Shown: positions 24,808-63,026 of the stretch, one piece after another | Numbering within the stretch: the stretch's first letter is position 1 | How the letters are laid out: each line of letters starts with the position of its first letter | DNA from: Henckelia pumila | Lineage: Eukaryota > Streptophyta > Magnoliopsida > Lamiales > Gesneriaceae | DNA: 64,000 nt | Direction of reading: 5' to 3' | Assembly: GCF_033568475.1 (NCBI RefSeq) | Contig: NC_133121.1 | Location: forward strand, 868,001 to 932,000 | The notes under the pieces: model-generated | What the model saw: only the letters and a program-made list of their open reading frames with translations | The model's database searches: none | What the model was told of the DNA's origin: nothing | Made by a program: the position numbers and the translations under genes

Positions 24808-24842
24808 TAAACAAAGCTAGTTAACATTTTTTAAAAGATATA

Positions 24843-25075: not shown

Positions 25076-25079
25076 TTAC

Positions 25080-25876: not shown

Positions 25877-25883
25877 AACAAAT

Positions 25884-27485: not shown

Positions 27486-27494
27486 TAAACAAAG

Positions 27495-28139
27495 CTAGTT
27501 AATATTTTTTAAAATATATTGAAGTAAACCATTCGCCAGCCTGTAAATGAAGGACTCGGCCTCAGGCTGTGCCTGTGCCGGAGATGGAGACGGCCGATAC
27601 CTCCGGCGGATGAATCTAACTGCGGCTATGACAAAGCCTAAGAATACCGCGACAGTCAGACAAATTCCCCACACGACGAAGCCTTTTAGTGCTGCTGATA
27701 TTTTTCGAGGAGGAGGAGCCAGGGGCGACATTTGAAATGTGTTCGCAAAAACACAGTTTTGTTTACCTGCAGTTGTAATTTTGGAATCACTTGCCGACAA
27801 CGGTAAGTATTAAAAAACAAAGGTAACTTACTTGGATCAGTGTCAACCAGGCGTCCAAGGTTATAAACATATTCTTACTTTTTCTCCATATTTGTAGTAG
27901 TAAGCGGCATCTATCAAATACGACGCTGATAAGCACCAGTTATTAGGAAAGTAGCATTTGCGTCCCGGCGACATGTCCACACATTCGAGAATCACGTCGT
28001 ACTGATTCTCGCAAATGCGGTGCACCAAAGCTTCATCTTAATTTGAAACATCCGCCCGTAGGACGCACTAGGACCCTTGTGCAATTGAGATTGAGAAAGA
28101 GAAGAAAAAGAATAGAGCGATAAAATTTTGAGTTTCCAT
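27495..28139 (-). pseudogene. X8-domain membrane protein, array copy D (broken)
   Basis: Start ATG at 28139. The invariant Trp of the X8 domain is changed to TAG (TGG to TAG in the codon before TGC), and a small deletion near 28035 adds a second disruption. The shared five-A frameshift is present. Exon 2 is open and ends in YILKNIN. It is the copy nearest the array's right boundary. Confidence 0.8.
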
Positions 28140-28439
28140 TGACGTAAAAAAATTTCACAAGTGCTTGTATTTAAGACAGAGTTATGAATTCTAAATATGT
28201 ATAGCCGTGTTACTTTAACATATTATCTAATTTTGGCAATTGTATTTATCTTCACTGAAATAATTTGTATTTTATGATAGATAAAGAGTCGTGAGTTCTT
28301 TTTTCTATGAATTATTTTTCAATTTCACACAATGTATTGAAACAAAACAGTAAGATGCTGAAAGTTTGGTTTTATGTATTTGTGATTCCAATTCACATTC
28401 TCCTTGCAATACAATGTTTGGAGGACATTTATAAAATTA

Positions 28440-28850
28440 ACGTCATATTTAATTTTAGGGTTTAAGTCCGAACACTAAGGGCATACACAATGGAGGACAT
28501 TTGGAGAAGACATTTCCCCAAATGTCCTCCAAACACAAATGTCCTCCCTCATTTATAAAATTAACGTCATATTTAATTTTAGGGTTTAAGTCCGAACACT
28601 AAGGACATACACAATGGAGGACATTTGGAGAAGACATTTCCCCAAATGTCCTCCAAACACAAATGTCCTCCCTTGTAGGGAGGACATTTGTGTTTGGGCG
28701 TAATATTCCCACTATAGTGGGTGCCCTAATCTGTGTCCGGACATTTTCTAGTCAGCACAAATGTTCTATCTACAAGGGAGGACATTTGTGTTTGGAGGAC
28801 ATTTGGAGAAATGTCTTCTCCAAATGTCCTCTACTGTGTATGCCCTAAAC
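28440..28850. mobile_element. AGGACATTTG MITE remnants with a 124-bp direct duplication
   Basis: The block starting CATTTATAAAATTAACGTCA occurs at 28426 and again at 28550, each followed by the left MITE module. The right end module then follows, ending CTGTGTATGCCC and TAA. The AT-rich body is absent. Confidence 0.7.
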
Positions 28851-28898
28851 AAAGCTAGTTAATATTTTTTAAAATATATTGAAGTAAACCATTTGCCA

Positions 28899-31141
28899 GC
28901 CTGTAAATGAAGGACTCGGTCTCAGGCTGTGTCTGTGCCGGAGATGGAGACGATGCCTTACTGATACATGATTACAGTTAAGGTATTTGATATGCAAACT
29001 TCTGCCTGGTGGACCTTGAAGACTTATGGAAAGCCTCCGGTAAACCTTCCAGCCTAACAGTGATAATTTTTTATTTAAAGAAATGCTATGAGATTTATGG
29101 TTTCCCCAGTTCCAACTTCTTTTTGTGTTAATTATTTGTGAATCATCTTTTGTTTGATCATTCATCATACGCAACTTGTTCCATTTTAAAGTTTTTATAA
29201 TTTATACTAACCATGTGAGACAATAGACATGATTCTTTGTTAATGTGTAAACTACTTTCTCCAAAGGATCAAACTGAGATTAATGATTGATAGCGACTAT
29301 TATCTGCCTATACTTGTGAAGTGTGGAAGATAAGCTTGAAAAGAGGGGTTATGATTATTTGCACAGCAATAAATTAAGGAAGTTGCTTTGTTGATATAAC
29401 ATAGGGGGGTGCCACCTTCTCCAAGGTCTGATCATGCTGCTGCGGTACATGCAGATCGTTATCTTCTTGTATTTGGTGGGGGTTCACATGCAACCTGCTT
29501 GAACACAACAAACTACCCTAATGTTTTCAACAGAGATATTGTATAAGCTTATATGTGGTAAGCTAAGAGTTGTATCCTCTTGACCATTAACTTCATGAAG
29601 ATGATTAGGTGGTGATAGACGAAAAGGCATCACTAGCTAATTAGTTTGAGGATGCAATTATCTAACCTGATGAGGTGCACGCACTTAACATGGCCGATTA
29701 TATGATTGTACTGACAAAAGTGTGTCAATTTACCCATTCAGAAAGCCTGATGGTGCGATCTTCTATAATGCAACAAGTTTGAAAGCACTTTTCATTTGTT
29801 TCTTATATAAAAACAAAGAATGCACTTTTCATTGCTTTTATTTGTACAATATTAGCTGTCAAATTTGCAAGTACCATGTAGTGATGTAATATGGTTAATG
29901 GTCGGGCATTTTTGTCATTCTAAACTTTTGCATGCCTTGAGGTGTCAGCAGCAAATATGATTAAGCTTTGCTGTCCCTGTTTCTACTGATTAAGCCTACC
30001 CATATGTTGTGTGAAGATGTCACGTTTTCCATTTTAGCTCCTTTCAATTTGTTTAAAATGTATTCAGATAATGTTACGTACCTTGGAAAATTATTGCCAA
30101 GATTGAAAGCTCTCCACTTATTGATGCTACAATTCCAGAAATAAAACTTTTTCACTATGGGTGGTCATCTTTTATGTTTAAGAGAAATATTTTGGTAAAA
30201 AGATTGTATGATTTGGATATTGAGACGAAAGTGACTGTAAATCTATGAAATACTGACTTTTGTAATATCATGTTTTTTAATGACATTGGGAATTCACTGT
30301 TTTACAACAAAAATTAGGTATGTTTTGAAGAAATGAGTCTAAGTCTTTCATTTATTTATTACTGGCTTCACTTTTTTTATTTATTTTTTTGTAATTATTA
30401 TTTTTGAGAAGTAGAATGCACATTGTTTCTCATTGATTTTATGGATCTGCAGGGAAGTTTATTCGCTTATATTAACTAATTCTTTGATGCTGAATAAACT
30501 CTTCCTTGGTTCTCCTTGAATATGCACCTTTTTATTATGTCCTGCTGATACTTGGCTTGCAATACTTAGAGAGTGTTTGTAATAGATTGTGATTTTGTAG
30601 AAGTGATTAATTTATAAATTATAAAAAAATTAAGAAAAATCAAAAGTTGGTAGTGTTTGGAATCAAATGTGAAAATCTAAAAATCAAAATTGGGTAGTGT
30701 TTGATAAATAAGTTATTAGAGTGATTTTAGCAATGACCTTTTTATTAAAATCACTTTTGGAGAATCATAATCACCACATGACTAGCTTTTGGATTTCAAT
30801 TAAGTTAAGTATAAGCTAATACATAATCTAGATTTAAAAAACACACAAAAATGATTTTTTTAAGCCAAAAGCTAACAATCATTTTTTTTTATTGATTGCA
30901 AGACTCCCTTAGTTGCTTAAACTTTGATAATGCTCACTTAACTCTTATTTCTGTAACACTTATTCCTGATGAAGAATTTTTCTCTCTGTTTTGTACAGGT
31001 TACCGAGGGTGAAGAAACAAACAAAAATCTTCTTTCATCCCTTAAAACAGAAAAAGGAAGAACTAGAATCTTCTCTCTCCAAGGAGAAAATGTGGGCATG
31101 AATTGATGGAATCAGAAACTCGCAACATGGATCTGTACAAG
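28899..31141 (+). pseudogene. Relic of an acyl-CoA-binding kelch protein gene (ACBP4/5 type), preceded by an X8 exon 2 fragment
   Basis: 28899-28952 is a fragment of X8 exon 2. After it, three exon-like islands on the plus strand match ACBP4/5 in order. About 29004-29052 reads WWTLKTYGKPPV. 29406-29505 reads PPSPRSDHAAAVHADRYLLV then FGGGSHATC, a kelch repeat. 30999-31141 corresponds to the C-terminal coiled coil (SSLKTEK then, after a frame slip, EELESSLSKEK) and contains an in-frame stop. Some splice signals survive. Many exons, including the acyl-CoA-binding domain, are missing. ACBP4/5 are cytosolic acyl-CoA carriers; this copy cannot work. Confidence 0.75.
30569..30909. mobile_element. 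Probable MITE inside the ACBP relic
   Basis: About 340 bp starting AGAGAGTGTTTGTAAT and ending with an imperfect inverted match (ATTGCAAGACTCCCT), flanked by TTA. The internal sequence repeats GTAGTGTTTG words. Non-coding; family uncertain (hAT- or Harbinger-like). Confidence 0.5.
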
Positions 31142-41130: not shown

Positions 41131-41318
41131 GCGTTCTTGGAGGGGTCATCACTGCTATGCGGGCTCAAAAATCCACGCTATCGGTCTGTAAGTTTTAATT
41201 GCTTTTAGTATGATTTAGTAGTATCATGTTTAAGACTTAAGCATTTATGTTAGCAGAAAATTTTTAAGTACTTAGTTATGCATGTCGATTTACGTAAAGA
41301 AATATGTGGTGGTGCAGA

Positions 41319-42336
41319 ATGCCTCCGAGACCAGTGAACAGGCGTGAAGGATCCCCACCTCCGCAAAACCCTCTATCAGCATTGGAGCAGGCCAATGCAA
41401 ACATGATGGCTGGGATTACTGCTCTGTTGGAGCAGCAAGCGGCACGTCCAAGACTGTCCCATGATGAGGATGTGGCGGAGAGGTTCCAGAAGAAGGGACC
41501 TAAGGAGTTCGCAGGTGCCACAGATCCACTCATTGCTGAGGGGTGGATCCGTTCTTTGGAGAGCATCTTTGCTTACATGGGGTTGACTGATGCTGACAAG
41601 GTGAGGTGCGCAGTGTACATGCTGAAAGGTGATGCAGAGTTATGGTGGGAGAGTGCATCACGGGGAGTGAATCTGACTACTTTGCGATGGACAGACTTCC
41701 GGAGGATGTTTTTCTCCAAGTATTTCACTGAAGACGTGCGCAGTAGCATGATTCGAGATTTCATGAGTCTCCGACAGGGAGACAAGACAGTTGTGGAGTA
41801 CATCCGACAGTTCGAGAGGGGCTGTCACCTTGTGCCGCTGATTGCTGACAGTGCACCTGAGAATATCAGACAGTTTATTGAGGGGCTCAGGGCAGAGATC
41901 AAGCATGACGTTCGTATGGCAGACGTCCCCACTTATGATACTGCAGTCAGTAGGGCCTTGCGTTCGGAGGATGGTAGGAGAGAGATCCACAGGGAGCAAC
42001 AGGGTAAGAGGCAGTTTCAGTCTGGAAATCAGCGACCATCTTCGCAGCCTCCTGTGAAGAAGCAGTATACTGGGCCGTCTAAGGGCCCGAACCAGCAGAA
42101 GCCACAGCAGCAGAGACAGCAGCGTAGGGGCAGGGCTCCTAATGCGGGAGGATATCCTACTTGCCCGAAGTGCCAGAAGATGCATCCAGGACCATGTCTT
42201 CTAGGAGCGGGCTTCTGTTTTCATTGTAAAGAGCCAGGGCACCAGATGGCCAATTGCCCAAGGAAGAAGAACACTACAGGGAGAGTGTTCGTGATGCAGG
42301 CTGAGGAGACAGACCCAGATACCTCCTTGATCACCG
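41319..42336 (+). CDS. Ty3 gag polyprotein part
   Basis: Open from ATG 41304; the internal ATG 41319 (MPPRPVNRRE) is the more typical start for this group. It contains the retrotransposon gag capsid region (AELWWESA, MSLRQGDKTVVEYIRQFE) and a CCHC knuckle near the end (CFHCKEPGHQMANC). The coding sequence ends at a splice-like donor at 42337 after ...DTSLITG; if unspliced, translation stops four codons later. Gag forms the cytoplasmic particle that packages the element RNA. Confidence 0.85.
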
Positions 42337-42550
42337 GTATATCTTACCCCTAGTATTTTATAATTTCTTCCTTTGGTTAAGAATTTCGATTTTTCTTTGT
42401 GGAATAGTTTGTTATTTGGGATTTTTCTATCTGCATGTTAGAATAGAAAGCATGTTTTACTTGTGATTAGAATTAAGGGTTATTAGTGACTCATCTTTGG
42501 GGGAAAAGTTTAGTAGTGGTATGAAGTTGTTGGGATTCTTCTGCATGCAG
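42337..42550 (+). other. Probable intron between Ty3 gag and protease
   Basis: 214 bp beginning GTATAT and ending TGCATGCAG, T-rich, and with stops in frame. Removing it joins the gag end to the protease start in frame at a place where related chromoviruses are continuous (the TG-RILV junction). Confidence 0.7.
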
Positions 42551-45500
42551 GGAGAATTCTAGTTGGAGGCAACTCCACGTTTGCGTTGCTAGATTCAGGG
42601 GCTACGCATTCGTTTATCTCCCTAGAGTTTATCAGACGGATAGGCATCACACCTGAGATTGTCGACAGTGGTTATGATGTTACTATGCCGTCAGGACAGA
42701 TTATTTCTACCTCTAGTGTCATTCGAGAGCTGGAGTTGGAGCTACAGGGGTACTCCATTCGCGCAGATGTAGTGGTTTTCCGTTGAGCGAATTTGATTTG
42801 ATATTGGGTATGGACTGGTTGACAGTCAATGGAGCTTCGATTGATTTTTGTCGGAGGACAGTGTCAGTGAAACCGCCGGGAGGCGACCCGTTTACTTTTC
42901 ATGCATCTCAGAGCAGTGATATTCCTCAGGTGATATCTCTTATTCAGGCGAGGAAGCTGTTGAAACGGGGTTGCCGAGGTTTCCTAGCGAGTATTATCAC
43001 GGCCTCAGAACCAGCTAGTAGATCATTATCAGAGATATAGGTGGTTCGTGATTTTCCGAACGTCTTTCCGAAGGATGTTGCAGGGATTCCACCAGTGAGA
43101 GAGGTGGAGTTCAGTATCGACTTATTGCCAGACACGGTGCCTATCTCAAAGGCACCATATAGACTTGCTCCTACCGAAATGAAAGAGTTGAAGGAGCAGA
43201 TTCAGGAGTTATTAGAGAAAGGCTTTGTTCATCCTAGCTTTTCTCCATGGGGAGCTCCAGTGTTATTTGTGAAGAAGAAGGATGGCAGTATGAGACTGTG
43301 CATCGATTATCGAGAGCTCAACAGAGTCACGGTGAATAATAAGTACCCACTGCCGAGGATAGATGACTTATTTGATCAGTTGCAGGGAGCTTCAGTGTTC
43401 TCCAAGATCGATCTGCGATCTGGTTATCATCAGCTGCGAGTTAGAGATGCAGACGTGTCCAAGACTGCTTTCTGGACACGTTATGGGCATTACGAGTTCT
43501 TAGTGATGCCATTTGAGATGACCAATGCTCCAGCGGTTTTCATGGATCTCATGAATCGGGTATTTCAGCCGTATCTTGATCAGTTCATCATAGTCTTCAT
43601 TGATGATATCTTGATCTGCTCTAGGAGCGTTAAGGAGCATAGGCAGCATCTACAGACAGTCTTGCAGACTTTGAGGGAACATCGTTTGTTTGCCAAGTTC
43701 AGCAAGTGCGAGTTTTGGCTTGAGCAGGTGGCATTTCTTGGCCACATTATTTCGAGAGATGAGATCGCAGTGGATCAGTCGAAGGTTGAGGCAGTGCAGA
43801 AATGGGGTATTCCGAAAAATGCTTCGGAGATTCGCAGTTTCTTGGGTTTGGCAGGATATTATAGGAAGTTCATTAAGGGTTTTTCCTCTATTGCAGTACC
43901 CTTGACTTCCTTAACCAAGAAGAATGCGAAGTTTATTTGGAGTCCAGACTGTCAGAGGAGCTTCGATCAGCTGAAGGAAGCACTCACTACCGCACCGGTT
44001 TTGGCGATGGCAGTACCACAGGAGGAGTTAGTGGTGTACACCGATGCATCTAAGCTAGGTTTAGGCGCAGTACTTATGCAGTGTGGTAAGATTATTGCTT
44101 ATGCGTCGAGGCAGTTGAAGATTTACGAGCAGAACTACTCGACACATGATTTGGAGTTAGCAGCAGTGGTCTTCGCTTTGAAAATCTGGAGGCACTATCT
44201 GTATGGCGAGAAGTGCAAGATTTTCACGGATCATAAGAGCCTCAAGTACATCTTCACTCAGAAGGAGTTAAACATGAGGCAACGGAGTTGGTTGGAGTTA
44301 GTGAAGGATTACGACTGCGACATTAGCTACCATCCAGGTAAGGCTAATGTAGTGGCCGATGCTTTGAGTCGAAAGTCGACGGTGGTATCGTGTTTGACAG
44401 TGCAGTTACCACTGCAGAGCGAGATTCATAGGTTTGATTTGGAGTTTTACTCGAGTGGTCATGCACCGAGCTTGTCAGTGTTGACGGTGCAGCCAGTTCT
44501 ACGAGATCGGATCAGGGATGAACAGCCTACAGATGAGGAGTTACAGCGGTTGGTGCAGAGGGATAAGGCTAAGGGCAATCTTCTTTTTACTGTCAGTGAT
44601 GGCATTATTCAGTACAGTGGTCGTTTGTGTGTCCCGAACATTGATCAGCTGAGGACTGAGATCCTGACAGAGGCTCACACATCTCCGTATTCCATTCATC
44701 CAGGAAGTACAAAGATGTATAAGGATTTGCAGACTTTGTATTGGTGGCCCGGCATGAAGAGTGATATCGCACGATTCGTATCAGAGTGCTTGACTTGTCA
44801 GCAGGTCAAGGCAGAGCATCAGCGTCCAGCAGGGCCTCTTAATCCTCTACCCATTCCGGTATGGAAGTGGGAGAACATCACGATGGATTTCGTAGTTGGC
44901 CTTCCGAGGAGTAACAGAGGGTGCACAGCTATTTGGGTGATCGTGGATAGATTCACCAAGTCAGCTCATTTCTTGCCGGTGAGGACTACTTACTCGTTGA
45001 CACAGTATGCAGAGCTTTACATCAAGGAGATTGTTAAACTGCATGGCATACCAGTGTCGATAGTATCAGACAGAGATCCGAGATTTACGTCTGCGTTTTG
45101 GAAGAGTTTGCACACAGCATTGGGGACTAGACTTTTGTTCAGTACAGCGTTCCATCCCCAGACAGATGGTCAGTCTGAAAGAGTGATCCAGGTTCTCGAG
45201 GATCTACTGAGAGCTTGTGTCATCGACTTTCAGGGCTCGTGGAAGACTAGACTGCCATTAGTGGAGTTTACCTATAACAACAGTTTTAAGTCGTCTATAG
45301 GTATGGCTCCTTATGCAGCATTGTATGGAAGGAGATGCAGATCTCCTATGCATTGGGATGAGGTTGGTGAGAGGATTTTACTTGGTCCTGAGATCGTGCA
45401 GCAGACAGATGACATTGTGACTCAGATTCGGGATTGTATGAGGACTGCTCAGAGTCGTCAGAAGAGTTATGCAGATACTCAATGACGAGATTTGGAGTTC

Positions 45501-49910: not shown

Positions 49911-50865
49911 ACAATAATTGTGTTCAACTCAATATTGGAAATGTTCTATATTTTTGTTATTTTTTTTAGATTTTATAGTATTTAAGAACGGGTCGAAAAT
50001 TCATTAGTGATTGTGTATAGTTTTTAATTACGAAATTATAGATGCAATTATTTTGTAATTTTTAATTACATGAATATTGTGTTTAAGTTTAGAATTTAAA
50101 TTTTTTTGTAAAGATTCCTCCTTAATCAAAATATGCCAAATATAAAATAATTGATTTAATAATTTGTAAAAATATGATTTTTTTAAAACTATCTTTTTTC
50201 CGGTTTTGTTCTCAAAATTTCCATTTTTCGAATCTTAGGTTGGATTTTATTTTAAATGTGTATTTATGATTTTTAAATTTTTTTGAAAGAAAATGTTATC
50301 AAGAGAATGCTGAAATCAGGGAATAATGTAAATAATTCTGTATAATTTTAAATGGATATATAAGTATATAAATAGATGCAAATATTATGAATGTTTAATT
50401 ACATGATTATTATGATTAAATTTGAATTGGAATTTTTTGTAAATATTTCTCCTTAATCAAAATATGCCACATGTAAAGTAATTGATTTAATAATTTGTAA
50501 AATTATGATTTTTTAAAAACAATCTTTTTTTCCCAGTTTTGTTCTCAAAATTTCCATTTTTTGAATTTTAGGTTGGATTTTATTTTAAATGTTTATTTAT
50601 GATTTTTAAATTTTTTTGAAAGCAAATATTATCAAGGGAATGCTAATATGAGAGAATAATGTAAATAATCCTGAGTAATTTTAAGTGGATATATATGTTT
50701 ATAAATAGATGCAAATATTATGGAATATTTAATTACATGAATATTGTGATTTAATTCCATAATCAAGATCGAAAATATTCTATATCTTTGTTATTTTTTA
50801 GATTTTATAGTATTTAATTACGGGCTGAAAAATCATTAGTGATTTTGTATAGTTTTTAATTATGG

Positions 50866-50925
<60 letters not shown>

Positions 50926-51391
50926 GTTACGTATGAATATTTACATATATTTATATACAAATATATAATTCCGTAATCTTTGTATATATTTCCGTAATCT
51001 TTGCACACACATATATATATGCAAAGATTATGGTATATTTGTATATAAATATATGTAAATATTCATATATAATTAAACATTGATATATATATTTATGTTT
51101 ATATTTATATTAAACATTTTTCGAATTTTAGTTTGGAATTTTTATTTAAATGTCAATTCTTGATTTTCAATTTTTTTGGAAAACAAATATTGTAAATGGA
51201 ATGCTGAAATCAGGAAATATTGTAAATAATCATGTGTAATTTTAAATTGATATATATGTATATAAATAGATGCAAATATTATGTAATTTTTAATTACATG
51301 AATATTGTGATTAAATTTGGAATTGGAATTTTTTTTGTAAATATTCCTCCTTAATCAAAATATGCCACATATAAAGTAATTGATTTAATAA
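49911..51391. repeat. AT-rich tandem repeats in the Helitron
   Basis: A block of about 330-350 bp (ATTACATGAATATTGTG through CTCCTTAATCAAAATATGCC and GGTTGGATTTTATTTTAAATG) occurs at about 50060-50390 and 50391-50740, in part at 51100-51290, and again at 51290-51391 continuing at 62663-62930 across the Copia insertion. A larger period of about 840 bp is seen from ATTTTATAGTATTTAA words at 49975 and 50806. Confidence 0.75.
50869..50922. repeat. TA dinucleotide repeat
   Basis: About 27 uninterrupted TA units followed by further TATATA/ATGTAAATAT palindromic text to about 51070. Confidence 0.95.
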
Positions 51392-52733
51392 TGTTGAATC
51401 CGATATTTTGGTGATAACAAACAACAACTCATTGTATAGGAATGTGCTGCCAACCATTGTATCTCAGGAATCTACTACAACTTCTGCCGGAAGCTTGTCA
51501 ACCGCCTTTGCTCTCGACCGGCTGAAGTCACAAGCCTATCGACTGGCTATCAAAACCAGCAGAAGATAAATCTATCTACCGGAAGCTTGTCAACCGCCTT
51601 TGTCTCTCGACCGGTTGAAGTCACAAGCTTATCGACTGGTTATTCAAACCAGCAGAGGACAAATATCTCTACAGGTAGAATGCCAACTGCCTATCAGGAT
51701 ATCTCAAGACAAGTACCTGTGACAAGATGTTCTTTGCAAGATCTTTTATTAAAAGCAGAACCGGCGTGTCAGAAGATATGTTGACTCCTGCAATCGAGAC
51801 AACAGGTTGCACCAAAATGGCAAAAACACAGAATGACTACAGATAAAGCATTCGACCGTTTATTCCAGTTTTGGACCCTGGAAGTTGTCTGCAGTGTACG
51901 ATCTTCATGCAGAATCATCAATGCATTTATGAGCATTAAATGTGCATTCAATGCAGCATCAGAACGTTCAAAATAAAGACGTTGATGATTGACCTATATG
52001 AAGGGAAGATTGCTCAAGAAGTGACAACAACGTCTACAACAAAAAAAAAAGAGAGACAAGCATTTCAGAAAAATCTCAATCAACTCAATCACTTGAATAA
52101 TATCAGAAGTCCTCATCTGATATACTTGAGCACACTTACAAGATCACTCATCTGCTGCTCAAATAAACCCTCGCCTACAGTTCACATATCTGATCGTCAA
52201 GGATCATCCTAGGGTTTTCAAGCCTCTCGACCGCTCTGCAGTTTGAGAAGCTCAACTCAACTATACACATTGTTGAAGAGAATTGAAGCTACTCTGAAAG
52301 CTTCCACCAGTCTGATAAGAACTGAGAATCTTATCTGTGTAAATCTAGGAGTTTCGGATTAGGCATTGGATAAGTCCTAAGTCTGAAGTGGGTGTATTAC
52401 AAGACGTTGTAATAACCAAAGTCTTCTAGTGAATTCCTTCCTAAGTGGAAGAAGGGGAGACGTAGAAGGATTAAGCCTTCGAACTTCCATAAATCGTGCC
52501 TTAGTCTTTACTGCTATTTATCTTACTTTCTGCTCATACATTTCATTATAAACTTTGCATCACTAAAACCTCTGAACTATTTCCGCACTATTTAAGTTGT
52601 TCAAATCGTTTTAGAAGTTGAGAAAACAGATTAAGTGAACTAAACCTCACTTGATCATTTCGAAAGTAGAAGAAGAAAAGTTTCAGAGTGTATTCACCCC
52701 CCCCCCCCTCTACCCTCTGAACCGATCCCAACA
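51392..52733 (+). repeat. Copia 5' LTR
   Basis: TGTTGAATCC...CCCAACA. It holds a 92-bp tandem duplication (units from 51487 and 51579) and a run of 12 C at 52697-52708 near its end. Confidence 0.96.
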
Positions 52734-52736
52734 AGT

Positions 52737-52748
52737 GGTATCAAAGCG
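52737..52748 (+). other. Copia primer-binding site
   Basis: TGGTATCAAAGC, one change from the usual complement of initiator Met-tRNA. Confidence 0.88.
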
Positions 52749-52786
52749 GGTTCCTTTCTCAACTGCTGATCTGAAGTTTTAAAATC

Positions 52787-54798
52787 ATGACTTCTTTCAA
52801 CAGAATTCCTATGTTTTCTAAAGAAGAGTATGATGATTGGAAAATTCGCATGCAGGCACATCTTGCAGCACAGGATGATGACATGCTATATGTCATAACA
52901 GACGGTCCTATCAAAATTATGAAGGTCAACCCAGCTCTAGCCGATGGTGCAGGACAAATGATTGAGAAACCAAGAGCTGAGTGGACCACTGAGGACAAAA
53001 AGAAGGCTAATCTTGACAATGTGGCCCGGGACATCCTATACAAAACACTGGATAAGAATATGTTCAGCAAAATCAAGTCATGTTCCACAGCAAAGGAGAT
53101 TTGGGAGAAGCTCACTCAGCTATGTGAAGGGAATGACCAGACAAAGGAAAACAAGCTCACTTTGGCCATTCAAAAATATGACAACGCCAAAATGAAGCCA
53201 GGAGAAACCATGGCTGAATTTGATGAACGGTTCAGTAGTATCATCTGTGATCTTATTGCTTTAGGTAAAACTTATACTAACCGTGAAATTGCTGTGAAGG
53301 TTATGAGAGCTTTACCCAAAGAATGGGAGATCAAGACAGTGGCCATGAGAGAGTCAAAAGACTTAAGCAAGGTTGAACTGCATGATCTCTTTGCAGATCT
53401 CAAAGCCTACGAGTTCGAGCTCAACATGAGAACAGAAGATGAACCATCTACTTCTCAACCAACCAAGGCCTTAACCTCAACCGTGACATGTCCACCGGTC
53501 GAGGAAGCTCCAAAGAGATCAGCTGAGCAAATCAGCAATGAAGCCATGACACTCTTTGTCAAGAAATTTGGTAGATTTATGCGTAAAAACAATTCTAAAT
53601 TTAAAAATTATCATAAATCGGACCATACAAAGGATGGTCCTACTTGTTTTAACTGTGGCAAGTCAGGCCACTTCATTGCAGACTGCACCAAGCCTAAGAA
53701 CAATGATCAGAAGCAATTCTCCGAAAGAAGAAGGGGTAAGGAGGATAAAAGGACGTTTAGAAAAGGAAGAGACCAAAGGGTTCTAGTAGCAGACGAAAGC
53801 AAAAGCAAATGGGCTGAGTCTGACTCTGACAACTCCAATACCGGAAGCTCTTCAGATGACAGCGATGATGAAAAAGTGGAATGCCTTATGGCCGATATCG
53901 AAGAAGAAGCTGAGGAGGTATTTGACTTTGGCTCACCTGAATTTACTCACAGTGATTTAGTTACCGCTTTACACGAAATGGCTAATGAATACAAAGCATT
54001 ATCCAAGGAGTTCGAGGAGTAAAGGCAGAAAGAGCTGACCTAAAAGATAAGTCAAGCAAATCAAGCTGCATGCAGCAAAAAGAGCTTGATGGTCTTAAGG
54101 TCAAGCTAAGTCTGCTGGCTACTGAGAACGACACCTTGAAAAGAGTATTCCAAGCTACCTTGATTGAGAATAAAAAACTACTTGAAACCATTAAGGCTTG
54201 GAATAAATCTTCTGTAACCATTGACAAGATTCAAGAAATCCAAAGACCGGTACATGATAAAACCGGTCTAGGGTTTGGAACAAATGAACAGTCTATGGAA
54301 TCCTGTATTCAGTCAAGCCTGGACAAAGGCAATCTTAACAAAATAAGATTTGTCAGGTCCAGCACGATATATGAACACGATAAGTGCAGCTTTGACAAAA
54401 ATCAGAAAGTATCTAACGAACAAAGCTCTAAGCATAGAGGGCTGGGATATGTGGATCCCCAGACCTCTAATCAAAGAGGAACTTGGATCAAACCAAAACC
54501 TAATGAAAGAAGAAAGGGAAACCAATCTAATTTCAAAAGGCCATGGAATGAGTCTAACTACTCTAAGAAAAGATGGTCAAAGGAGAAGCCTTACCAGTAC
54601 TTTAATTGCAGGCCAGTTCAAAAGAGGTACAGGCTAACTGATGAAAATCAAAAAGGCAAGCAGCACACAGCAACCTCACAAGCACACACATTTACTGCCT
54701 ATCGACCGCACAGATTTCTGGACACACACACGGGCAAACCTGTAAGGGTGTTCCAGGTGTGGGTCCCGAAAGGGCTAATCCGACCTGGACCCTACTAG
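52787..54798 (+). pseudogene. Copia gag (frameshifted)
   Basis: ATG 52787 opens a 411-codon frame with a UBN2-type gag region (YDDWKIRMQAHL, KEIWEKLTQLCEG) and a CCHC knuckle (CFNCGKSGHFIADC). TAA at 54020-54022 follows EFEE. The next frame, open from there to TAG 54796-54798, continues as a Lys/Asn-rich gag tail with a coiled-coil-like start, so a one-base frameshift near 54018 is inferred. The tail is in the same frame as pol, separated from it only by the TAG. Confidence 0.85.
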
Positions 54799-57700
54799 AT
54801 ATGGGTACCAAAAGTTCTTCACTCTTTGCAGGTACTAAAAGTCCAAACGGGCGAAAAAACCACTTCTATCAAGGACACTACCTGGTATTTAGATAGCGGT
54901 TGCTCACGACACATGACAGGGAATCCAGAACTTCTAACAGAAGTGGTGTTGTGCAAAGGACCAAAGATCAGCTTTGGAGACAACTCCAAAGGTAAAACCG
55001 TGGGTAAGGGTAAGATTATCCATGGTAACATCATTATTAAAGATGTGTTACTTGTTGACAAACTATGCTATAATTTGATAAGTATTAGTCAACTATGTGA
55101 CAATGATCATTCGGTCGAGTTTCACAAACACACTTGCCTTATAAAAAATGACAAAGGTGAGACTCTTATGACCGGTGTACGAGACCTAAACACCTACAAG
55201 GTAAACTGGTCTTGCTCACATATTTCTTCACCTACTTGTCTTACTGCTCATCATGATAAACATTGGTTGTGGCATAAGCGGTTAATGCATCTAAATTTTA
55301 AGTCCATTTTTAACTTGAGGAAGCATGATTTGGTTTCTGGTCTGCCCGAAGGAGATTTTATAAAAGACAAAGTTTGTCCTGCTTGTCAACTAGGAAAGCA
55401 GGTGAGAGCAACCTTTAAAAATAAAGGGTGTATGTCTTCTTCCAAATGTTTAGACTTACTTCACATGGACCTATTTGGTCCTATACCAGTAAGAAGCATA
55501 GGGGGAATGAGATATGCTCTTGTTGTTATTGATGACTTTTCTCGATTTACTTGGGTCATCTTTCTCTTTTCAAAAGATCAAACCGCACCTCACCTGATTA
55601 AGCTTTTTAAACGCTTGCAAAATGAACAATCTACTGTGATAGATAGAATCAGGAGTGATAAAGGGACTGAATTTTTAAACACCACTCTTACGACTTATCT
55701 AGATGATCAGGGAATCAAGCATGAGTTGTCAGCTGCTAGATCCCCACAGCAAAATGGGGTGGCTGAAAGAAGGAACCGTACTTTAAAAGAAGCAGCCAGA
55801 ACTATGATTGCCGATTCAAATGTTTCTCAAAGGCTTTGGGCAGAAGCAGTTAACACAGCTTGCTATACTCAAAACAGATCTATGATTAATAAACAATTTA
55901 ACAAAACTCCATATGAGATCTGGAATGGCATAAAACCTGATATTTCATACTTCAAAATTTTTGGGTGCAAATGCTTTATCCACAACAATGGCAAAAACCA
56001 TTTGACAGCCTTCGATGCCAAAGCAGACGAAGGAACTTTTATTGGTTACTCAGCCGTTAGCAGAGCTTATCGAGTGTTCAATCAAAGATCACTAACGGTC
56101 GAGGAAACCATTCATGTTGTTTTTGATGAATCTACTCTTTGTACAGAACAAACTCAAGGGAGCATAAATGATCTGAGTCATAGACTGGAAAACACAAATC
56201 TACAGGAAGAGAGTGACAGTGATCTATATCCTCCAAAGAAGGATGATCCAGTTCCCTCTACCGGGTGTGATCAAACAAGGCCAGAAGTGGATCCACCGGT
56301 TGATAACAATCCTCCAGCCAATGATGATCCAGTAAACGAGGACGTTCATCAACCAATTGATGACAACCCTTTAGGGAATTATTTTAGGTGGAACAAAGAT
56401 CATCCACCTGGGTTGGTCATAGGTGACCCTTCTGCTCCTCGAAAAACACGTGGTCAAATGATTAATGAATTCTTGCATGCAGCTTTCATATCTCAGGTAG
56501 AGCCCAAGAAAATAGATGAAGCTCTATCAGATGTCAGCTGGATTGAAGCTATGCAAGAAGAGTTGAATCAATTCACCCGCAACAATGTTTGGCATCTAGT
56601 TCCTCGACCGAAAAATCAAAATGTGATTGGAACTAGATGGGTGTTTCGTAACAAGCTCGATGAACATGGCACTGTTGTGCGTAACAAAGCTCGACTTGTT
56701 GCTCAAGGATTCAGACAAGAAGAAGGCATAGACTTTGAGGAATCCTTCGCGCCAGTTGCAAGACTAGAAGCAATCCGCATCTTTCTTGCTTATGCAGCCT
56801 TCAAGAATTTTAAAGTCTATCAAATGGATGTGAAGTCTGCATTCCTCAATGGTCTACTTCAAGAAGAGGTGTACGTTGAACAACCACCAGGTTTTGTCAA
56901 TCCTACTCATCCTCAATATATCTATAAACTTGACAAAGCTCTCTATGGATTAAAACAAGCACCGCGGGCTTGGTATGACACATTACTAAAATTTTTACTA
57001 GAACATGATTTCCAAATTGGAACGGTCGATAAGACCCTGTTTAAATTTGTAAAAAATGATCATGTGTTACTAGTACAAATTTATGTTGATGACATTATAT
57101 TTGGGTCAACTAACCCCAAGTTGTGCTCAAAGTTCTCTAAACTGATGAAGGAGAAGTTTGAAATGAGCATAATGGGCGAGCTAAACTTCTTTCTTGGACT
57201 TCAAGTGAAGCAACGTGAAACTGGAATATTCATCAATCAGTCCAAGTATGCCAAGGAATTGGTAAAGAAGTTTGGAATGGAACAATGCTCAACTGTATCT
57301 ACCCCCATGAGTACATCAATTAAGCTTGATAAAGATGAAGGGGGAATTCCGGTCGAGGTAACCATGTATCGAGGCCTTATTGGTTCACTGCTTTATTTGA
57401 CTGCCAGTCGACCGGATATCATGTATTCAGTTTGTTTATGCGCTAGATTTCAAGCAGCACCTAAGCAATCTCATTTCATTGCCGCCAAACGAATAATTAA
57501 ATATATTAAAGGAACTACTAATGTGGGTCTTTGGTATCCCAAAGATTCAAATCTTAATCTTATTGGCTATTCAGATGCAGATTATGCAGGTTGTAGAATT
57601 GATCGCAAAAGTACAAGTGGCACATGTCAATTCCTTGGAGATAGACTAATTTCGTGGTCAAGTAAGAAGCAGACATCAATTGCTACCTCGACCGCCGAAG

Positions 57701-58026
57701 CAGAATACCTTGCTGCTGGCAGCTGTTGTGCTCAAATACTCTGGATTCAACAGCAGCTTAATGATTATGGGATTCGGTCGAGTGAAGCTCCAATCTACTG
57801 TGACAATACAAGTGTCATAGCCATCACTCACAATCCAGTGATGCACTCTAGGACAAAGCACATTAATGTCAGGCATCACTTTATCCGAGATCATGTCTTA
57901 AAGAAGGAAATCAGGCTGGAATACATCTCTACCGATCAGCAAGCAGCAGACATATTCACCAAGCCTCTACCGGACGCTAAGTTTTCATATTTTCGAAATA
58001 TTCTTGGCTTAGTAGATTTAAATTAG
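54799..58026 (+). CDS. Copia pol: protease, integrase, RT, RNase H
   Basis: Open from the codon after TAG 54798 to TAG 58024-58026, over 1,060 codons. The protease motif is [12 protein letters not shown]. Integrase has the HHCC zinc domain ([15 protein letters not shown]) and Asp, Asp, Glu in [15 protein letters not shown] and [10 protein letters not shown] has [11 protein letters not shown] and the active-site box YVDDIIFGS. RNase H has SDADYAG, EAEYLA and the terminal [12 protein letters not shown]. All key residues are present, so this part looks functional if it can be translated; the frameshift and stop upstream would hinder that. It lacks its own ATG context at 54799. Confidence 0.92.
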
Positions 58027-58224
58027 TATGCATGTATTTAGGGGGAATGATTGTCAATATGACATTAATATATTAGCTGTTACGTTGCCATAAATATTGG
58101 CATATCATCCGCCTTTAACTAGTCTCTGACAGGCTTCGTACTAGCAGCTTGGTGCTTTGAACCAAATGACATTAATTGGGCGCCTTGATTATGCTCTTCA
58201 AAACTTTTTGAAATTCAAAAATAC

Positions 58225-58390
58225 TTTTCATGACGTCACCCTATGGCCCATAGGTTCCTATATATACTTCTTTACATTCGTATATCAATCTTTCACCTTT
58301 GCTAAAAGCTTTCATATTGTATTAAACGCATCATCGAATTATTCTCTAGATTTTGCTTACTCTCTGCTCGAGTTCTTATCTACAGCTATC
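58225..58390 (+). promoter_or_regulatory. Candidate internal promoter before the extra Copia ORF
   Basis: Within 36 bp lie TGACGTCA (58231-58238, a palindromic bZIP-type site), TGGCCCA (58243-58249, site II type) and TATATATA (58259-58266). ATG 58391 is about 125 bp downstream of the TATA sequence. Spacing and order are those of a plant core promoter. Confidence 0.5.
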
Positions 58391-61156
58391 ATGTCGATCC
58401 AGAAGACTTGCCTCGCAATCAACTTTGATTCCGTTGTTAAGGCAAACAACGCAGGAATATCTGAGGTCTTCACCATGCTTGAAGCCTCTGGACTGAAGAA
58501 ATTTCTGGAATGCAGCGCCATCTGCGATTTGCCTGTTTTGAAGGAGTTCTTCGCAACCGCTCAAATCGAGCATGGGACTATCAAATGCTTGATCAAGACA
58601 GAGGTCTACTCCTTCAATCAGAAGTTCTTTGCCAGCACATTTGATCTGCCCTCCAGGGGTTTGACAAAATGCACGGATCTTCCAGATGGTAACTGCTCTT
58701 ATTGGTTGAAGGAGTTCTCAACTACTGATGCTCCGATCAAACTGCCGGCCCAGAAGACATCTCTCAAAGCTCCATTCAGGCTACTGACTAATATCGTGGC
58801 CAAGAATCTTCTGGCCAAGGCTGGATCTTACGACAAGGTGACGCTGGAGAAATTTCAATACATGGCTTGTATTGCCTCCAAGATCAACGTAAACTGGTCA
58901 GACATTCTGTTCAATATTCTATGTGAAATGATCAGGGGCAAAGGGCAATCCGAGGGATTTGCTTTGCAAATCTGCCACATCTTGGGCATCCTTGGAGTGG
59001 ACTTTTCCAAGACTGAGCCTCTGCATCCCACCAAATGGCTCAACAAGTCTACGATTCTCAAATTCCTGAACAATAAAGAGACTGCGGTCGACACCTTGCC
59101 CTCAACCGCAAAGGTTATTGCTATCCCTCAACCGCTTTCAACGGTTCCGATCGTGGTCAAACCAGTCCATACCAAAAAGTCTGCCAAGCGTCAACTGATC
59201 ATCGAATCTGACTCTGAAGATGAATCACGTGAGAATGTTCCACTGATTCAAGCTTTCAGCAAGTCATCCCCGACGGTCTCCAAAGCAGCTGTGTCATCCA
59301 CGCCTGCAGGCGAGAAGAAGAGGCAGCACAAGAAGCTAAAGTCCCTTTCTGGACTTGCTCCTACCCTGCCAACGGTCGAGACTACTACCGTTGTTGCTTC
59401 TACTGCTCCTCGTCCTACAAAAGGTGTGATAATCCGGGAAGGTGCCTCATCAGCTCCTGAGGTCACTCTAGCTGATCCCAAAGACAAAGGGAAAGGTGTG
59501 ATGATCTACATACCCAAGGCTCAACCAGCAGCTACGATAGAACTCAATTTGATCATCTCTCACGTGCTCCGTACTGTCAAGCGTCATCTACAACGTTTTG
59601 ACAGATGGCATCACTCCCGCACTCACTTGACACTCGCTCAAATATTTCCCAAATGGAAATCTCTCAACGTCATTGAGCAGAAGATGCTTCTATTTGCTGA
59701 TACTGAAGACATCGTGGAGGCTCTGGGAAGAAGACATCTCATAGACTTGAAGCTTCGAGGAAGCCTGCTATCTCTGCTAATTAATGAGCGTGTCAAGAAT
59801 TTCAAATCCAAGAGTCCTACCGCTGCCGATGACTTTGTGATTTTGACTGGACTACAGGATAGTCTACGTCAAATCACTCAATTACTTCAGCACTTCCAAG
59901 CTCTAAACAATGTCAAAACACCAGCTTCAGCAGCCTGTTTACAAGCTTATGTGCTGGAAGCACAAGTGATGATGAAAACCTTTCTCACCCAAGATCAGGG
60001 TGAAGAAGACGTCTATGCTCTCCCTTCTTCAGATGGGATTCTGACCGATCTCATCACTGCTGACCTCTTTCAATCATCTGCTTTAAGATCGAGTGTGGCA
60101 GCATCTTCATCGATCGACCCCTCCTCAACCGCAGTCCAAGCAGTTACTCAACCGGAAGCAGTTGTGATTGCTCACTCCTCTCCAGTGACGACCACTCACA
60201 CTTCTCCCGGTCATTCACAAGATGTTTTAGAAGTGGTTGCACAAGAGATACCTGTCACTTCTGTGACAGAGGCTCCTTGCAGTAGTGAAGCAACAGTGCC
60301 CCCATCGGAGATATCAAGCACTATTGTATCACCTGCATCTTCAGAACAGCAAGTGACTGATGCTGATCCAGCACTTCAACCGTCTCCATCTAATGAAAAG
60401 TTTATGGAAGATCTCATTATGGATGAACCAAGTGCTGATCCTGGTACTCCACCAACCATATTGGCTGCAGTCGAAACTATTATATCTCCAACTGTACCAT
60501 TATTGGAAGGTCCATCGGGTAGCTCTCCAGCCAGTTCACCCGCACCACATCATCGTGAGTCTAGCCCGGTTTCACCAAGAAATGACCCAGAAGGGCAAAT
60601 GCTTCAGACTGATGATTCTTTAATTGAAGCCATGGCCGCAGCTCTAGATCATACCTTGATAAATCGGCTTCATGAGCTCATGCAAACGGTTAGGTCCTTC
60701 TCTCAAGACATAACAAACTCATCCTTATCGGTCGATAATTCACGCCAGACGATGATTCGGCATTTTGAGACCGTGTCTCGAGACCTTGCTCGTCTGTCCA
60801 CAGAGATCACTAATCATCATCGCACTCAAATCAACACGCTCTCTACCGTCTCTGAACAAGTTATCCGATCCGAAAACCGCCTTCATAAGCAGTTGAATGA
60901 TCGGATGGACACTATGCAAGCCACTCTACTTGCTCAAATCGATGCAAAAATGGACACTATGCAAGCCTGCCTTGGCACTCAACTCACTGAGGTCATCCTT
61001 CGACTCAACCAAGGTGATGCCAAAAAGGGGGAAGAAGAGCAACGTAGAGCAGCAGAGGCAAGAAGACGTGAAGAAGAGTCCAGAAGAAAAGAAGAGGCCG
61101 ACAGAAGAAGAAGAGAAGGCGATAGGTCAGGAGGAGCCAGTTGGTTCAAAAGATGA
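58391..61156 (+). CDS. Extra ORF of the Copia element (env-position protein, unknown function)
   Basis: 921 codons from ATG 58391 (MSIQKTCLAINFDSVV) to TGA 61156. The frame is open further upstream to ATG 58166 (and TTG 58157), but 58391 is preferred because a TATA-like sequence lies between. Residues 1 to about 230 form a folded-looking alpha-helical region. The middle is Ser/Thr/Pro-rich and low-complexity. A further helical region lies around residues 370-540. The last 120 residues, with repeated MDTMQA motifs and a Glu/Arg-rich end, should form a coiled coil. No clear signal peptide or fusion machinery is seen, so env-like refers only to position. Absence of lesions over 2.7 kb suggests constraint or youth. 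Confidence 0.75.
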   Translation: MSIQKTCLAINFDSVVKANNAGISEVFTMLEASGLKKFLECSAICDLPVLKEFFATAQIEHGTIKCLIKTEVYSFNQKFFASTFDLPSRGLTKCTDLPDGNCSYWLKEFSTTDAPIKLPAQKTSLKAPFRLLTNIVAKNLLAKAGSYDKVTLEKFQYMACIASKINVNWSDILFNILCEMIRGKGQSEGFALQICHILGILGVDFSKTEPLHPTKWLNKSTILKFLNNKETAVDTLPSTAKVIAIPQPLSTVPIVVKPVHTKKSAKRQLIIESDSEDESRENVPLIQAFSKSSPTVSKAAVSSTPAGEKKRQHKKLKSLSGLAPTLPTVETTTVVASTAPRPTKGVIIREGASSAPEVTLADPKDKGKGVMIYIPKAQPAATIELNLIISHVLRTVKRHLQRFDRWHHSRTHLTLAQIFPKWKSLNVIEQKMLLFADTEDIVEALGRRHLIDLKLRGSLLSLLINERVKNFKSKSPTAADDFVILTGLQDSLRQITQLLQHFQALNNVKTPASAACLQAYVLEAQVMMKTFLTQDQGEEDVYALPSSDGILTDLITADLFQSSALRSSVAASSSIDPSSTAVQAVTQPEAVVIAHSSPVTTTHTSPGHSQDVLEVVAQEIPVTSVTEAPCSSEATVPPSEISSTIVSPASSEQQVTDADPALQPSPSNEKFMEDLIMDEPSADPGTPPTILAAVETIISPTVPLLEGPSGSSPASSPAPHHRESSPVSPRNDPEGQMLQTDDSLIEAMAAALDHTLINRLHELMQTVRSFSQDITNSSLSVDNSRQTMIRHFETVSRDLARLSTEITNHHRTQINTLSTVSEQVIRSENRLHKQLNDRMDTMQATLLAQIDAKMDTMQACLGTQLTEVILRLNQGDAKKGEEEQRRAAEARRREEESRRKEEADRRRREGDRSGGASWFKR

Positions 61157-61305
61157 ACAACTTATCTCTTTTTTACTTATCGCAGCTGTATTTTTTTTGT
61201 AGGTGTAATAAAAATGCTTATTGTACTTAATGAAATTCATTCTCTCAATGAAGTTCATTTTAATGATTTCATATTGTTCTTGGAGCACTTAAGTTTTGTC
61301 ATCAC

Positions 61306-61320
61306 CAAAAAGGGGGAAAT
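61306..61320 (+). other. Copia polypurine tract
   Basis: AAAAAGGGGGAAAT directly before the 3' LTR. Confidence 0.9.
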
Positions 61321-62662
61321 TGTTGAATCCGATATTTTGGTGATAACAAACAACAACTCATTGTATAGGAATGTGCTGCCAACCATTGTATCTCAGGAAT
61401 CTACTACAACTTCTGCCGGAAGCTTGTCAACCGCCTTTGCTCTCGACCGGCTGAAGTCACAAGCCTATCGACTGGCTATCAAAACCAGCAGAAGATAAAT
61501 CTATCTACCGGAAGCTTGTCAACCGCCTTTGTCTCTCGACCGGTTGAAGTCACAAGCTTATCGACTGGTTATTCAAACCAGCAGAGGACAAATATTTCTA
61601 CAGGTAGAATGCCAACTGCCTATCAGGATATCTCAAGACAAGTACCTGTGACAAGATGTTCTTTGCAAGATCTTTTATTAAAAGCAGAACCGGCGTGTCA
61701 GAAGATATGTTGACTCCTGCAATCGAGACAACAAGTTGCACCAAAATGGCAAAAACACAGAATGACTACAGATAAAGCATTCGACCGTTTATTCCAGTTT
61801 TGGACCCTGGAAGTTGTCTGCAGTGTACGATCTTCATGCAGAATCATCAATGCATTTATGAGCATTAAATGTGCATTCAATGCAGCATCAGAACGTTCAA
61901 AATAAAGACGTTGATGATTGACCTATATGAAGGGAAGATTGCTCAAGAAGTGACAACAACGTCTACAACAAAAAAAAAAAGAGAGACAAGCATTTCAGAA
62001 AAATCTCAATCAACTCAATCACTTGAATAATATCAGAAGTCCTCATCTGATATACTTGAGCACACTTACAAGATCACTCATCTGCTGCTCAAATAAACCC
62101 TCGCCTACAGTTCACATATCTGATCGTCAAGGATCATCCTAGGGTTTTCAAGCCTCTCGACCGCTCTGCAGTTTGAGAAGCTCAACTCAACTATACACAT
62201 TGTTGAAGAGAATTGAAGCTACTCTGAAAGCTTCCACCAGTCTGATAAGAACTGAGAATCTTATCTGTGTAAATCTAGGAGTTTCGGATTAGGCATTGGA
62301 TAAGTCCTAAGTCTGAAGTGGGTGTATTACAAGACGTTGTAATAACCAAAGTCTTCTAGTGAATTCCTTCCTAAGTGGAAGAAGGGGAGACGTAGAAGGA
62401 TTAAGCCTTCGAACTTCCATAAATCGTGCCTTAGTCTTTACTGCTATTTATCTTACTTTCTGCTCATACATTGCATTATAAACTTTGCATCACTAAAACC
62501 TCTGAACTATTTCCGCACTATTTAAGTTGTTCAAATCGTTTTAGAAGTTGAGAAAACAGATTAAGTGAACTAAACCTCACTTGATCATTTCGAAAGTAGA
62601 AGAAGAAAAGTTTCAGAGTGTATTCACCCCCCCCCCCTCTACCCTCTGAACCGATCCCAACA
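61321..62662 (+). repeat. Copia 3' LTR
   Basis: Same length and sequence as the 5' LTR except for C/T, G/A and T/G changes (61591, 61734 and 62472 regions), 11 instead of 12 C, and one more A in the A run near 61970. Confidence 0.96.
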
Positions 62663-63026
62663 AATAATTTGTAAAAATATGATTTTTTAAAAACAATATT
62701 TTTTCCGGTTTTGTTCACAACATTTCTATTTTTCAAATCTTAGGTTGGATTTTAATTGAAATGCTTGTTCATGATTTTTAAATGTTTTGGAAAGTAAATA
62801 AATATTAGAAAGGGAATGCTGAAATCAAAGAATAATAAAAATAATCCTGTGTAATTTTAAATGTATATATATGTATAGAAATAGATACAAATATTATGAA
62901 ATTTTTAATTTCATGAATATTGCGATTTAATTATGGAATTTTTTATTTCCGTTTTTAGCAACACAGTTTTGGCGGGATTTTACCGAAAATGGCAAAAACT
63001 CCATTATATATATATATATAGTAAGA

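Follow-up and report, generated by a model that had tools for sequence, protein, structure and literature searches.

A dispersed CGGTHGA motif in a Sirevirus-type Copia element of Henckelia pumila, a probable array of family-specific protein-binding sites

Why would one short word recur throughout a retrotransposon, in its long terminal repeats (LTRs) and its genes alike? The question is raised by a 64,000-nucleotide stretch of Henckelia pumila DNA (contig NC_133121.1, positions 868,001–932,000; hereafter the window), in which an 11.3 kb Copia element at 51392–62662 carries 21 copies of CGGTCGA or its complement TCGACCG. A preliminary description of the window attributed these copies to a constraint on nucleic acid and not on protein. 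We find this attribution strongly supported by codon shuffles, by counts of the positions at which the proteins permit the word, and by the word's rank at or near the top when parts of the element are searched separately. Judged from sequence analysis, we put at about 0.6 the probability that CGGTCGA represents the core of a duplex-DNA site that is specific to the family and bound by a protein, the sites making up a selected array that probably acts on chromatin or transcription along the element.

Distribution of the heptamer and its variants

All 21 positions in the preliminary description proved exact, and the only other copy in the window was confirmed at 23805. Dinucleotide shuffling predicts 1.48 copies for the whole window, with a maximum of 6 in 100 shuffles, against the 22 present. 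When one LTR is counted (51392–61320), the element has 17 copies against 0.22 expected from a first-order Markov model, and z-scores place CGGTCGA first among 7-mers, CGGTCG (its core) first among 6-mers and CGGTCGAG first among 8-mers. The parts of the element over which the motif is distributed are as follows (H = C, T or A; W = A or T; D = A, G or T; ORF, open reading frame).

51392–52733, plus strand: 5′ LTR of the Copia (Sirevirus-type) element; 8 CGGTHGA, 7 of the 8 spelled TCDACCG on the plus strand
52787–54022, plus strand: gag, Retrotran_gag_2 and zinc knuckle; 1 CGGTCGA, 1 CGGTTGA
54070–54798, plus strand: ORF2, between gag and pol, without a Pfam match; 1 CGGTCGA
54826–58026, plus strand: pol, integrase and RVT_2; 8 CGGTCGA, 4 CGGTWGA
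58027–58390, plus strand: linker between pol and the envelope (ENV) position; 0 CGGTHGA, where other families hold their repeated word
58391–61156, plus strand: extra ORF in the envelope position, 921 amino acids from MSIQ; 3 CGGTCGA, 6 CGGTWGA
61321–62662, plus strand: 3′ LTR, 99.63% identical to the 5′ LTR

The 21 copies of CGGTCGA lie at these positions:

51514–51520, minus strand: 5′ LTR
51607–51613, minus strand: 5′ LTR
51852–51858, minus strand: 5′ LTR
52227–52233, minus strand: 5′ LTR
53496–53502, plus strand: gag, codons CCG GTC GAG
54702–54708, minus strand: ORF2
55112–55118, plus strand: pol, SVE
56096–56102, plus strand: pol, TVE
56604–56610, minus strand: pol, PRP
57023–57029, plus strand: pol, TVD
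57350–57356, plus strand: pol, PVE
57408–57414, minus strand: pol, SRP (invariant across 9 aligned proteins)
57688–57694, minus strand: pol, STA
57775–57781, plus strand: pol, RSS
59085–59091, plus strand: extra ORF
59373–59379, plus strand: extra ORF
60729–60735, plus strand: extra ORF
61443–61449, minus strand: 3′ LTR
61536–61542, minus strand: 3′ LTR
61781–61787, minus strand: 3′ LTR
62157–62163, minus strand: 3′ LTR

The heptamer is real, but the true motif is wider than the preliminary description supposed. Among the 21 variants checked that differ from CGGTCGA by one base, CGGTTGA (10 copies, 1.24 expected) and CGGTAGA (5 copies, 0.58 expected) are also in excess; the highest count among the other 19 belongs to CAGTCGA (4 copies, 0.86 expected). 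The motif can be written CGGT[C/T/A]GA, or CGGTHGA with C favored over T and T over A. The following base is G at 20 of 32 sites and the base after that is A or G at 27 of 32. The variant sites are:

51498–51504, minus strand: CGGTTGA, 5′ LTR (3′ LTR copy at 61427)
51575–51581, minus strand: CGGTAGA, 5′ LTR (3′ LTR copy at 61504)
51590–51596, minus strand: CGGTTGA, 5′ LTR (3′ LTR copy at 61519)
51612–51618, plus strand: CGGTTGA, 5′ LTR (3′ LTR copy at 61541)
53477–53483, minus strand: CGGTTGA, gag
56257–56263, minus strand: CGGTAGA, pol
56297–56303, plus strand: CGGTTGA, pol
57928–57934, minus strand: CGGTAGA, pol
57966–57972, minus strand: CGGTAGA, pol
59102–59108, minus strand: CGGTTGA, extra ORF
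59128–59134, minus strand: CGGTTGA, extra ORF
60125–60131, minus strand: CGGTTGA, extra ORF
60148–60154, minus strand: CGGTTGA, extra ORF
60376–60382, minus strand: CGGTTGA, extra ORF
60842–60848, minus strand: CGGTAGA, extra ORF

With one LTR counted, the element thus carries 32 CGGTHGA sites (LTR 8, gag 2, ORF2 1, pol 12, extra ORF 9, linker and ends 0). The sequences flanking the CGGTCGA sites are unrelated to each other. The same word emerges when the parts are searched separately: CGGTCGA is the top 7-mer of pol (8 copies, 0.05 expected, z 34) and, after the poly-C run, of the LTR (4 copies, 0.04 expected, z 21), ranks second in gag plus ORF2 (2 copies, 0.02 expected), and comes fourth in the extra ORF (3 copies, 0.12 expected), where CGGTTGA is first (5 copies, 0.22 expected). 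Because the word derived from the LTR predicts that of pol, the tests on coding sequence are independent of choosing the word from coding sequence.

Independence from the encoded proteins

Synonymous-codon shuffles of the four ORFs (n = 3000) yielded 0 to 4 CGGTCGA sites (mean 0.69), and a stricter shuffle that also preserves neighboring bases yielded 1 to 8 (mean 2.4), against 13 observed. As far as shuffles go, the excess withstands the refuting condition set by the preliminary description. Nor does it depend on having singled out one word: when the maximum over all 7-mers in pol was taken, the real sequence reached z 34 and the best of 200 shuffles 11.5, and for 5.5 kb around pol, with words counted at 50-bp spacing, z was 31 and the highest value among 100 simulations 10.5. 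All three codon phases occur among the coding sites, as previously stated, but very unevenly: 8 of the 9 forward sites read NCG GTC GAN, while three of the 4 reverse sites fall in phase 2 and the other in phase 0.

We also counted permitted positions, meaning places where the encoded protein tolerates CGGTHGA through synonymous codons (the extra ORF being counted from 58157 here). Across the four ORFs, 24 of 64 permitted positions are filled, where codon use predicts 3.8; the fraction for pol is 12 of 23, including all 5 of the forward phase-1 places. For comparison we used pol and its surroundings at 12 further loci of Sirevirus type in this genome, chosen by codon spelling from about 100 of 1382 matches, all on contig C1; the codon pattern excludes the window element's family, and the 12 loci do not represent 12 independent families. 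Seven of them (L029–L035) have 0 of 89 permitted pol positions filled and five more (L037–L041) have 1 of 58, giving 1 of 147 over the 12 loci. A Fisher test of 12/23 against 1/147 assumes independent loci, an assumption that does not hold, L029, L030, L032 and L035 being 83–93% alike.

At conserved residues, the window element and L031 differ by several silent changes at one site: TVE is encoded by ACG GTC GAG in the window element versus ACA GTT GAA in L031, SRP by AGT CGA CCG versus AGC AGA CCA, and STA by TCG ACC GCC versus TCT ACG GCA. At other motif sites L031 also differs in amino acids, for example DSS in place of RSS. Synonymous change is frequent at the motif codons (19 of 20 versus 339 of 687 for L031; 13 of 15 versus 300 of 634 for L037), but this excess is partly circular, because a compared site without the motif must differ somewhere, and we do not rely on it. 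The shuffles and permitted-position counts rule out a cause at the protein level. They make the element a clear case in which the codon choice of a mobile element is shaped by a DNA-level array of sites, about half of the permitted pol positions being filled.

The preliminary description had offered a mutational or recombinational signature as one cause, and this fits poorly. CGGTTGA, with its 10 copies, and CAGTCGA could indeed be deaminated CGGTCGA. However, the other two of the four single deamination products, CGGTCAA and TGGTCGA, are absent (0 each), CGGTAGA is not a deamination product, and CpG is depleted within the element (observed/expected 0.53), so that deamination or CpG bias is ruled out as the entire cause. 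Any account by mutation, gene conversion or recombination, or by a side effect of biased codon or CpG use, must further contend with the unrelated flanks of the sites, with sites that appear where the protein permits them, with the several synonymous changes per place relative to L031, and with the balance of changes confined to single copies among the sister elements described below: 13 sites are missing from one copy only, and 3 CGGTHGA, each of them in LTR sequence and two overlapping, are present in one copy only. We consider an origin of this kind very improbable.

Orientation of the sites

The 32 sites are of mixed orientation, 11 on the plus and 21 on the minus strand, with an even 6 and 6 in pol, and the presence of both orientations points to duplex DNA. 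RNA packaging, another suggestion of the preliminary description, fits poorly for the same reason, since a signal in the genomic RNA, whether a structure or a site that Gag or some other protein recognizes during packaging or reverse transcription, should be one-stranded. The element does encode a Gag with a zinc knuckle, and predictions of local folding give the sites a somewhat higher pairing (0.68, versus 0.55 for random positions and 0.60 for GC-rich controls), but this difference is small, and an RNA-level signal seems to us quite unlikely. Of the options in that description, a DNA-binding site fits best.

Such a site could in principle serve the element's own DNA metabolism, that is, cDNA replication, integration or self-targeting, for instance through integrase binding. 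The sites do lie on the element itself, LTRs included, but they show no terminal clustering apart from the LTR group, in which 6 of the 8 LTR copies fall within 51498–51618. Copia integrases are not known to require more than the LTR ends, which weighs against integrase as the binder, and we rate this whole class of explanation as highly improbable.

The motif in other loci of the genome

Each of the 12 comparison loci holds at most 2 CGGTHGA, L040 being only 30% identical in pol. Among the loci compared, the motif in pol is a trait of the window element's family. Several loci carry words of their own, found past pol: 9 GTTCGGA in L029, 11 GATCGGA in L032 and 10 GATCGGA in L035, all within about 600 bases past pol, with no GATCGGA inside pol. 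Post-pol clusters were located in L029 (1514–1820), L032 (3705–4009), L035 (1569–1876), L033 (3582–3760) and L041 (2731–2908), and the words in them are GTTCGGA, GATCGGA, CGCTCGA/CGATCGA and CGGGCGC. The CGG-cored 7-mers of L029, L032 and L035 cluster in the linker between pol and ENV, as published for Sireviruses by Bousios et al. (2010; PMC2829016).

These observations bear on whether an ordinary host transcription factor might bind the sites, the array then being an enhancer for a stress or tissue response with neither anti-silencing nor an element-encoded partner. A short core with one tolerant base is typical of host factor sites, and the LTR copies occupy the LTR part where Sirevirus repeated motifs have been proposed as transcriptional activators (PMC2829016). 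Yet a host factor would serve all families, while the 12 other loci are nearly devoid of the motif and, among the first seven, those with a marked word use a different one; nor does an enhancer have an obvious need for sites 2–9 kb downstream of the promoter, across pol and the extra ORF. We view a host enhancer array as possible but doubtful.

Within pol, the best 7-mer was seldom matched by shuffles in two of the first seven loci, L029 (TCCTAGG, 4 copies; 3 of 200) and L031 (5 copies; 2 of 200), and was equalled by 20 or more of 200 in the remaining five. The excess of the 7-mer CCAGGAC in L031 was discarded as a hexamer tandem repeat. In L034 (G000:C1:6755649-6761180), AACACTG occurs 13 times over 5.5 kb against 1.23 expected, at positions 83–5359, 6 forward and 7 reverse, in coding and noncoding sequence and with unrelated flanks; the related L033 has none. 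Five copies lie in pol pieces (synonymous-shuffle mean 1.03; 1 of 1000 shuffles reaches 5). The word was picked from the same locus, and the best-word test fails on pol alone (174 of 200 shuffles); over the whole 5.5 kb it gives 5 of 100. AACACTG is thus weakly indicated as a possible second dispersed word, a lead rather than a finding.

The word CGGTCGACCGG is not in excess genome-wide, with 17 forward and 17 reverse occurrences against 15 and 13 for the control, and the eight of these 34 places that we examined (L001–L008) show no similarity to the element. Four of its sites fall within 80 kb (G000:C1:135429840-135509735; L005–L008), at loci dissimilar to the element.

Comparison with known motif systems

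Sirevirus repeated motifs, as described by Bousios et al. (2010; PMC2829016), are palindromic words of CGG-CCG signature that are specific to a family and present in many copies. They sit in the LTRs and, where an ENV gene is present, in the linker before it (77 of 79 linker copies); in two elements a few also occur where ENV begins. Three of the 13 published motifs start with CGGT and two more contain it, and the grape motif CGGTCGACCG includes the CGGTCGA heptamer (PMC2829016). The window word shares with these motifs its shortness, CGG core, high copy number, family specificity and place in the LTR of a Copia element that bears ENV, and its 8 LTR copies include the group of six in the upper LTR. 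It differs from them as described in being asymmetric, in having no copy in the linker, and in carrying 24 of 32 copies within its genes, for the most part at synonymous positions. When the element was scanned for a palindromic repeated motif of the form CGG(1–9 bases)CCG, a single place, 59142, came up, and the palindromic reading was rejected. In maize Sireviruses, the LTR region of repeated motifs, whose palindromes were reported by Bousios et al. (2016) as described in PMC5311732, likewise resembles that of the window element and has been tied to the host epigenetic response and small-RNA hotspots; the palindromes are in the LTR only, and the part of PMC5311732 available to us does not describe a spread into coding regions. 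A limited search of the literature found no description of a repeated motif spread through gene bodies.

A second parallel is provided by VANC, whose target motif in VANDAL DNA transposons is YAGTATTAY (Y = C or T; Hosaka et al. 2017, PMC5735166; PMC10398659). According to these two papers, the density of the motif matters for binding and the effect extends over the whole element. Like the window word, VANC targets are short motifs enriched in one family, rare elsewhere, and different between related families. VANDALs, however, are DNA transposons and not Copia elements, and the VANC motifs are found chiefly in noncoding tandem repeats of one orientation; the probes from coding regions that were tested did not contain them. 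A VANC system also includes an encoded protein that binds the motif and removes methylation. The window element shares the dense family-specific short motif but not the noncoding tandem arrays in one orientation, and this amounts to likeness to VANC, not membership. No VANC relative turned up via Pfam, the only search made for one.

Proposed role of the array

On the reading we favor, CGGTHGA, most often with G as the next base and a purine after that, would be the counterpart of the repeated motif, likewise CGG-cored, of Sirevirus LTRs, and the word would have spread into gag, pol and the extra ORF mostly by synonymous changes where the proteins permit them. Selection inside the multi-copy family may have favored dense binding along the whole body. 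With less confidence, we suggest that the bound factor keeps the element from silent chromatin or keeps transcription on, as VANC does for VANDAL. This factor may be encoded by the element, with the extra ORF as the first candidate, or be a host protein; that ENV and linker motifs occur together in published elements (PMC2829016) makes the extra ORF a candidate and nothing beyond.

Conservation among sister copies is consistent with this reading. A search with a piece of pol gave at least 40 places at 99–100% identity, including the window (40 scored of 2114 first-look candidates), and we compared the window copy with 20 sisters, 0.42–1.72% different from it, for 21 copies in all. With sites defined on the window copy, 330 of 339 readable site-by-copy cells are intact in the 20 sisters; by the same folded count, 40 of 420 cells are changed for the other 7-mers that contain two CpGs, but these 21 words overlap heavily. 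Over the 21 copies, 18 CGGTCGA sites are common, eight of them lost in one or two copies. At 51483 all 20 sisters have CGGTAGA, with TCTGCCG in the window copy only. No shared variant occurs in the 119 motif columns intact in the window copy, versus about 1.7% of other columns, a signal of constraint that is suggestive only, because one shared loss appears once position 60111 is counted. The expectation that relatives would conserve the sites therefore holds for the sisters and not for the remoter Sirevirus-type loci, which lack the motif in pol; on this the family trait described above is based.

Several observations weigh against a selected binding array. The sisters are young, so that conservation in them is weak evidence by itself. 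Once singletons are counted, motif columns vary about as often as others (7.6% versus 4.4% of columns), and motif CpG columns carry singletons about as often as other CpG columns (8.8% versus 9.3%). Position 60111 reads CGGTCGA in 17 of 20 sisters and CGATCGA in the window, a loss common to 4 of the 21 copies. The nearest other families among the loci compared (L031 and L037–L039, about 71–74% DNA identity) are without the motif. VANC sites and Sirevirus motifs as published are noncoding, unlike those of the window element. Finally, the extra ORF has no Pfam domain above the cut-off, and a structure model of its N-terminal 231 amino acids is poor and unreliable (predicted local distance difference test, pLDDT, 48.9).

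More tentatively still, and we think it unlikely, ENV-bearing Sireviruses might counter silencing through a system in which the family's own repeated motif is recognized by the envelope-like ORF or by a different protein of the element; here the targets would lie in gene bodies and the protein would coat the element along its whole length. If so, the envelope-like gene and the family-specific repeated motifs would share one joint function. Were the sites bound by an element-encoded protein, sequence-specific anti-silencing would no longer be confined to DNA transposons but would include a major Copia lineage of plants, and the Sirevirus repeated motifs and envelope-like gene would gain a testable role. 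The test of permitted versus realized positions can be applied to any transposon family in search of hidden target words.

Structure and classification of the element

The limits of the element were confirmed by its target-site duplication and LTR pair, the latter differing at 3 of 1344 aligned columns (99.63% identity) plus 2 gaps. Its remaining features are:

51387–51391: target-site duplication AATAA, 5′ copy, with the second copy at 62663–62667 (read from the flanks)
52697–52708, plus strand: poly-C run near the LTR end (compare the Sirevirus polyC-rich integrase signal)
52736–52747, plus strand: primer-binding site TGGTATCAAAGC
61311–61318, plus strand: polypurine tract AGGGGGAA

The Pfam matches fall in the order Retrotran_gag_2, rve, RVT_2, the Copia gene order with integrase ahead of reverse transcriptase. 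C runs stand at both LTR ends (52697 and 62627), as in the Sirevirus polyC-rich integrase signal. The Sirevirus polypurine octamer AGGGGGAG adjoins the 3′ LTR and has several linker copies, with a terminal-A variant in two members (PMC2829016); AGGGGGAA at 61311 is that variant. AGGGGGA[AG] also occurs at 58040, 61026, 57339 and 55500, only 58040 and 61311 lying outside ORFs. The 921-amino-acid ORF downstream of pol is envelope-like by position only; many Sirevirus members have an envelope-like ORF there. Together, the primer-binding site, the AGGGGGAA form of the polypurine tract, the poly-C at the LTR end and the extra ORF after pol appear to fit the published Sirevirus description, and the Sirevirus-type label is based on these features and a similarity search of pol. 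A scan of IMG/VR for relatives of pol gave none.

We set the start of the extra ORF at 58391 through comparison with the homologue P0001. A single-sequence search with this ORF gave three homologues, two of them named, from Henckelia pumila and Dorcoceras hygrometricum, although a profile search returned no matches. A CTATAAATA-like word (pattern CTATA[AT]A[TA]A) lies at 58258–58266 in the linker, 133 bp upstream of the likely start, and is a possible internal promoter; the idea of an internal promoter for Sirevirus ENV was raised in PMC2829016. Repeats that are 60–85% alike flank the element on both sides (50511–51317 and 62683–62932), and it seems to sit in a repeat array.

Other sequences in the window

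Elsewhere in the window, a Gypsy-type retrotransposon is suggested at 41304–45485 by the look of the translation of Gag-like and pol-like ORFs. The words GGAGGAC/GTCCTCC and AATGTCC recur in 20001–30000, with 22 and 29 counts at 50-bp spacing, and a 124-bp tandem duplicate at 28426–28673 contains both orientations; these words probably represent a family of short inverted-repeat sequences.

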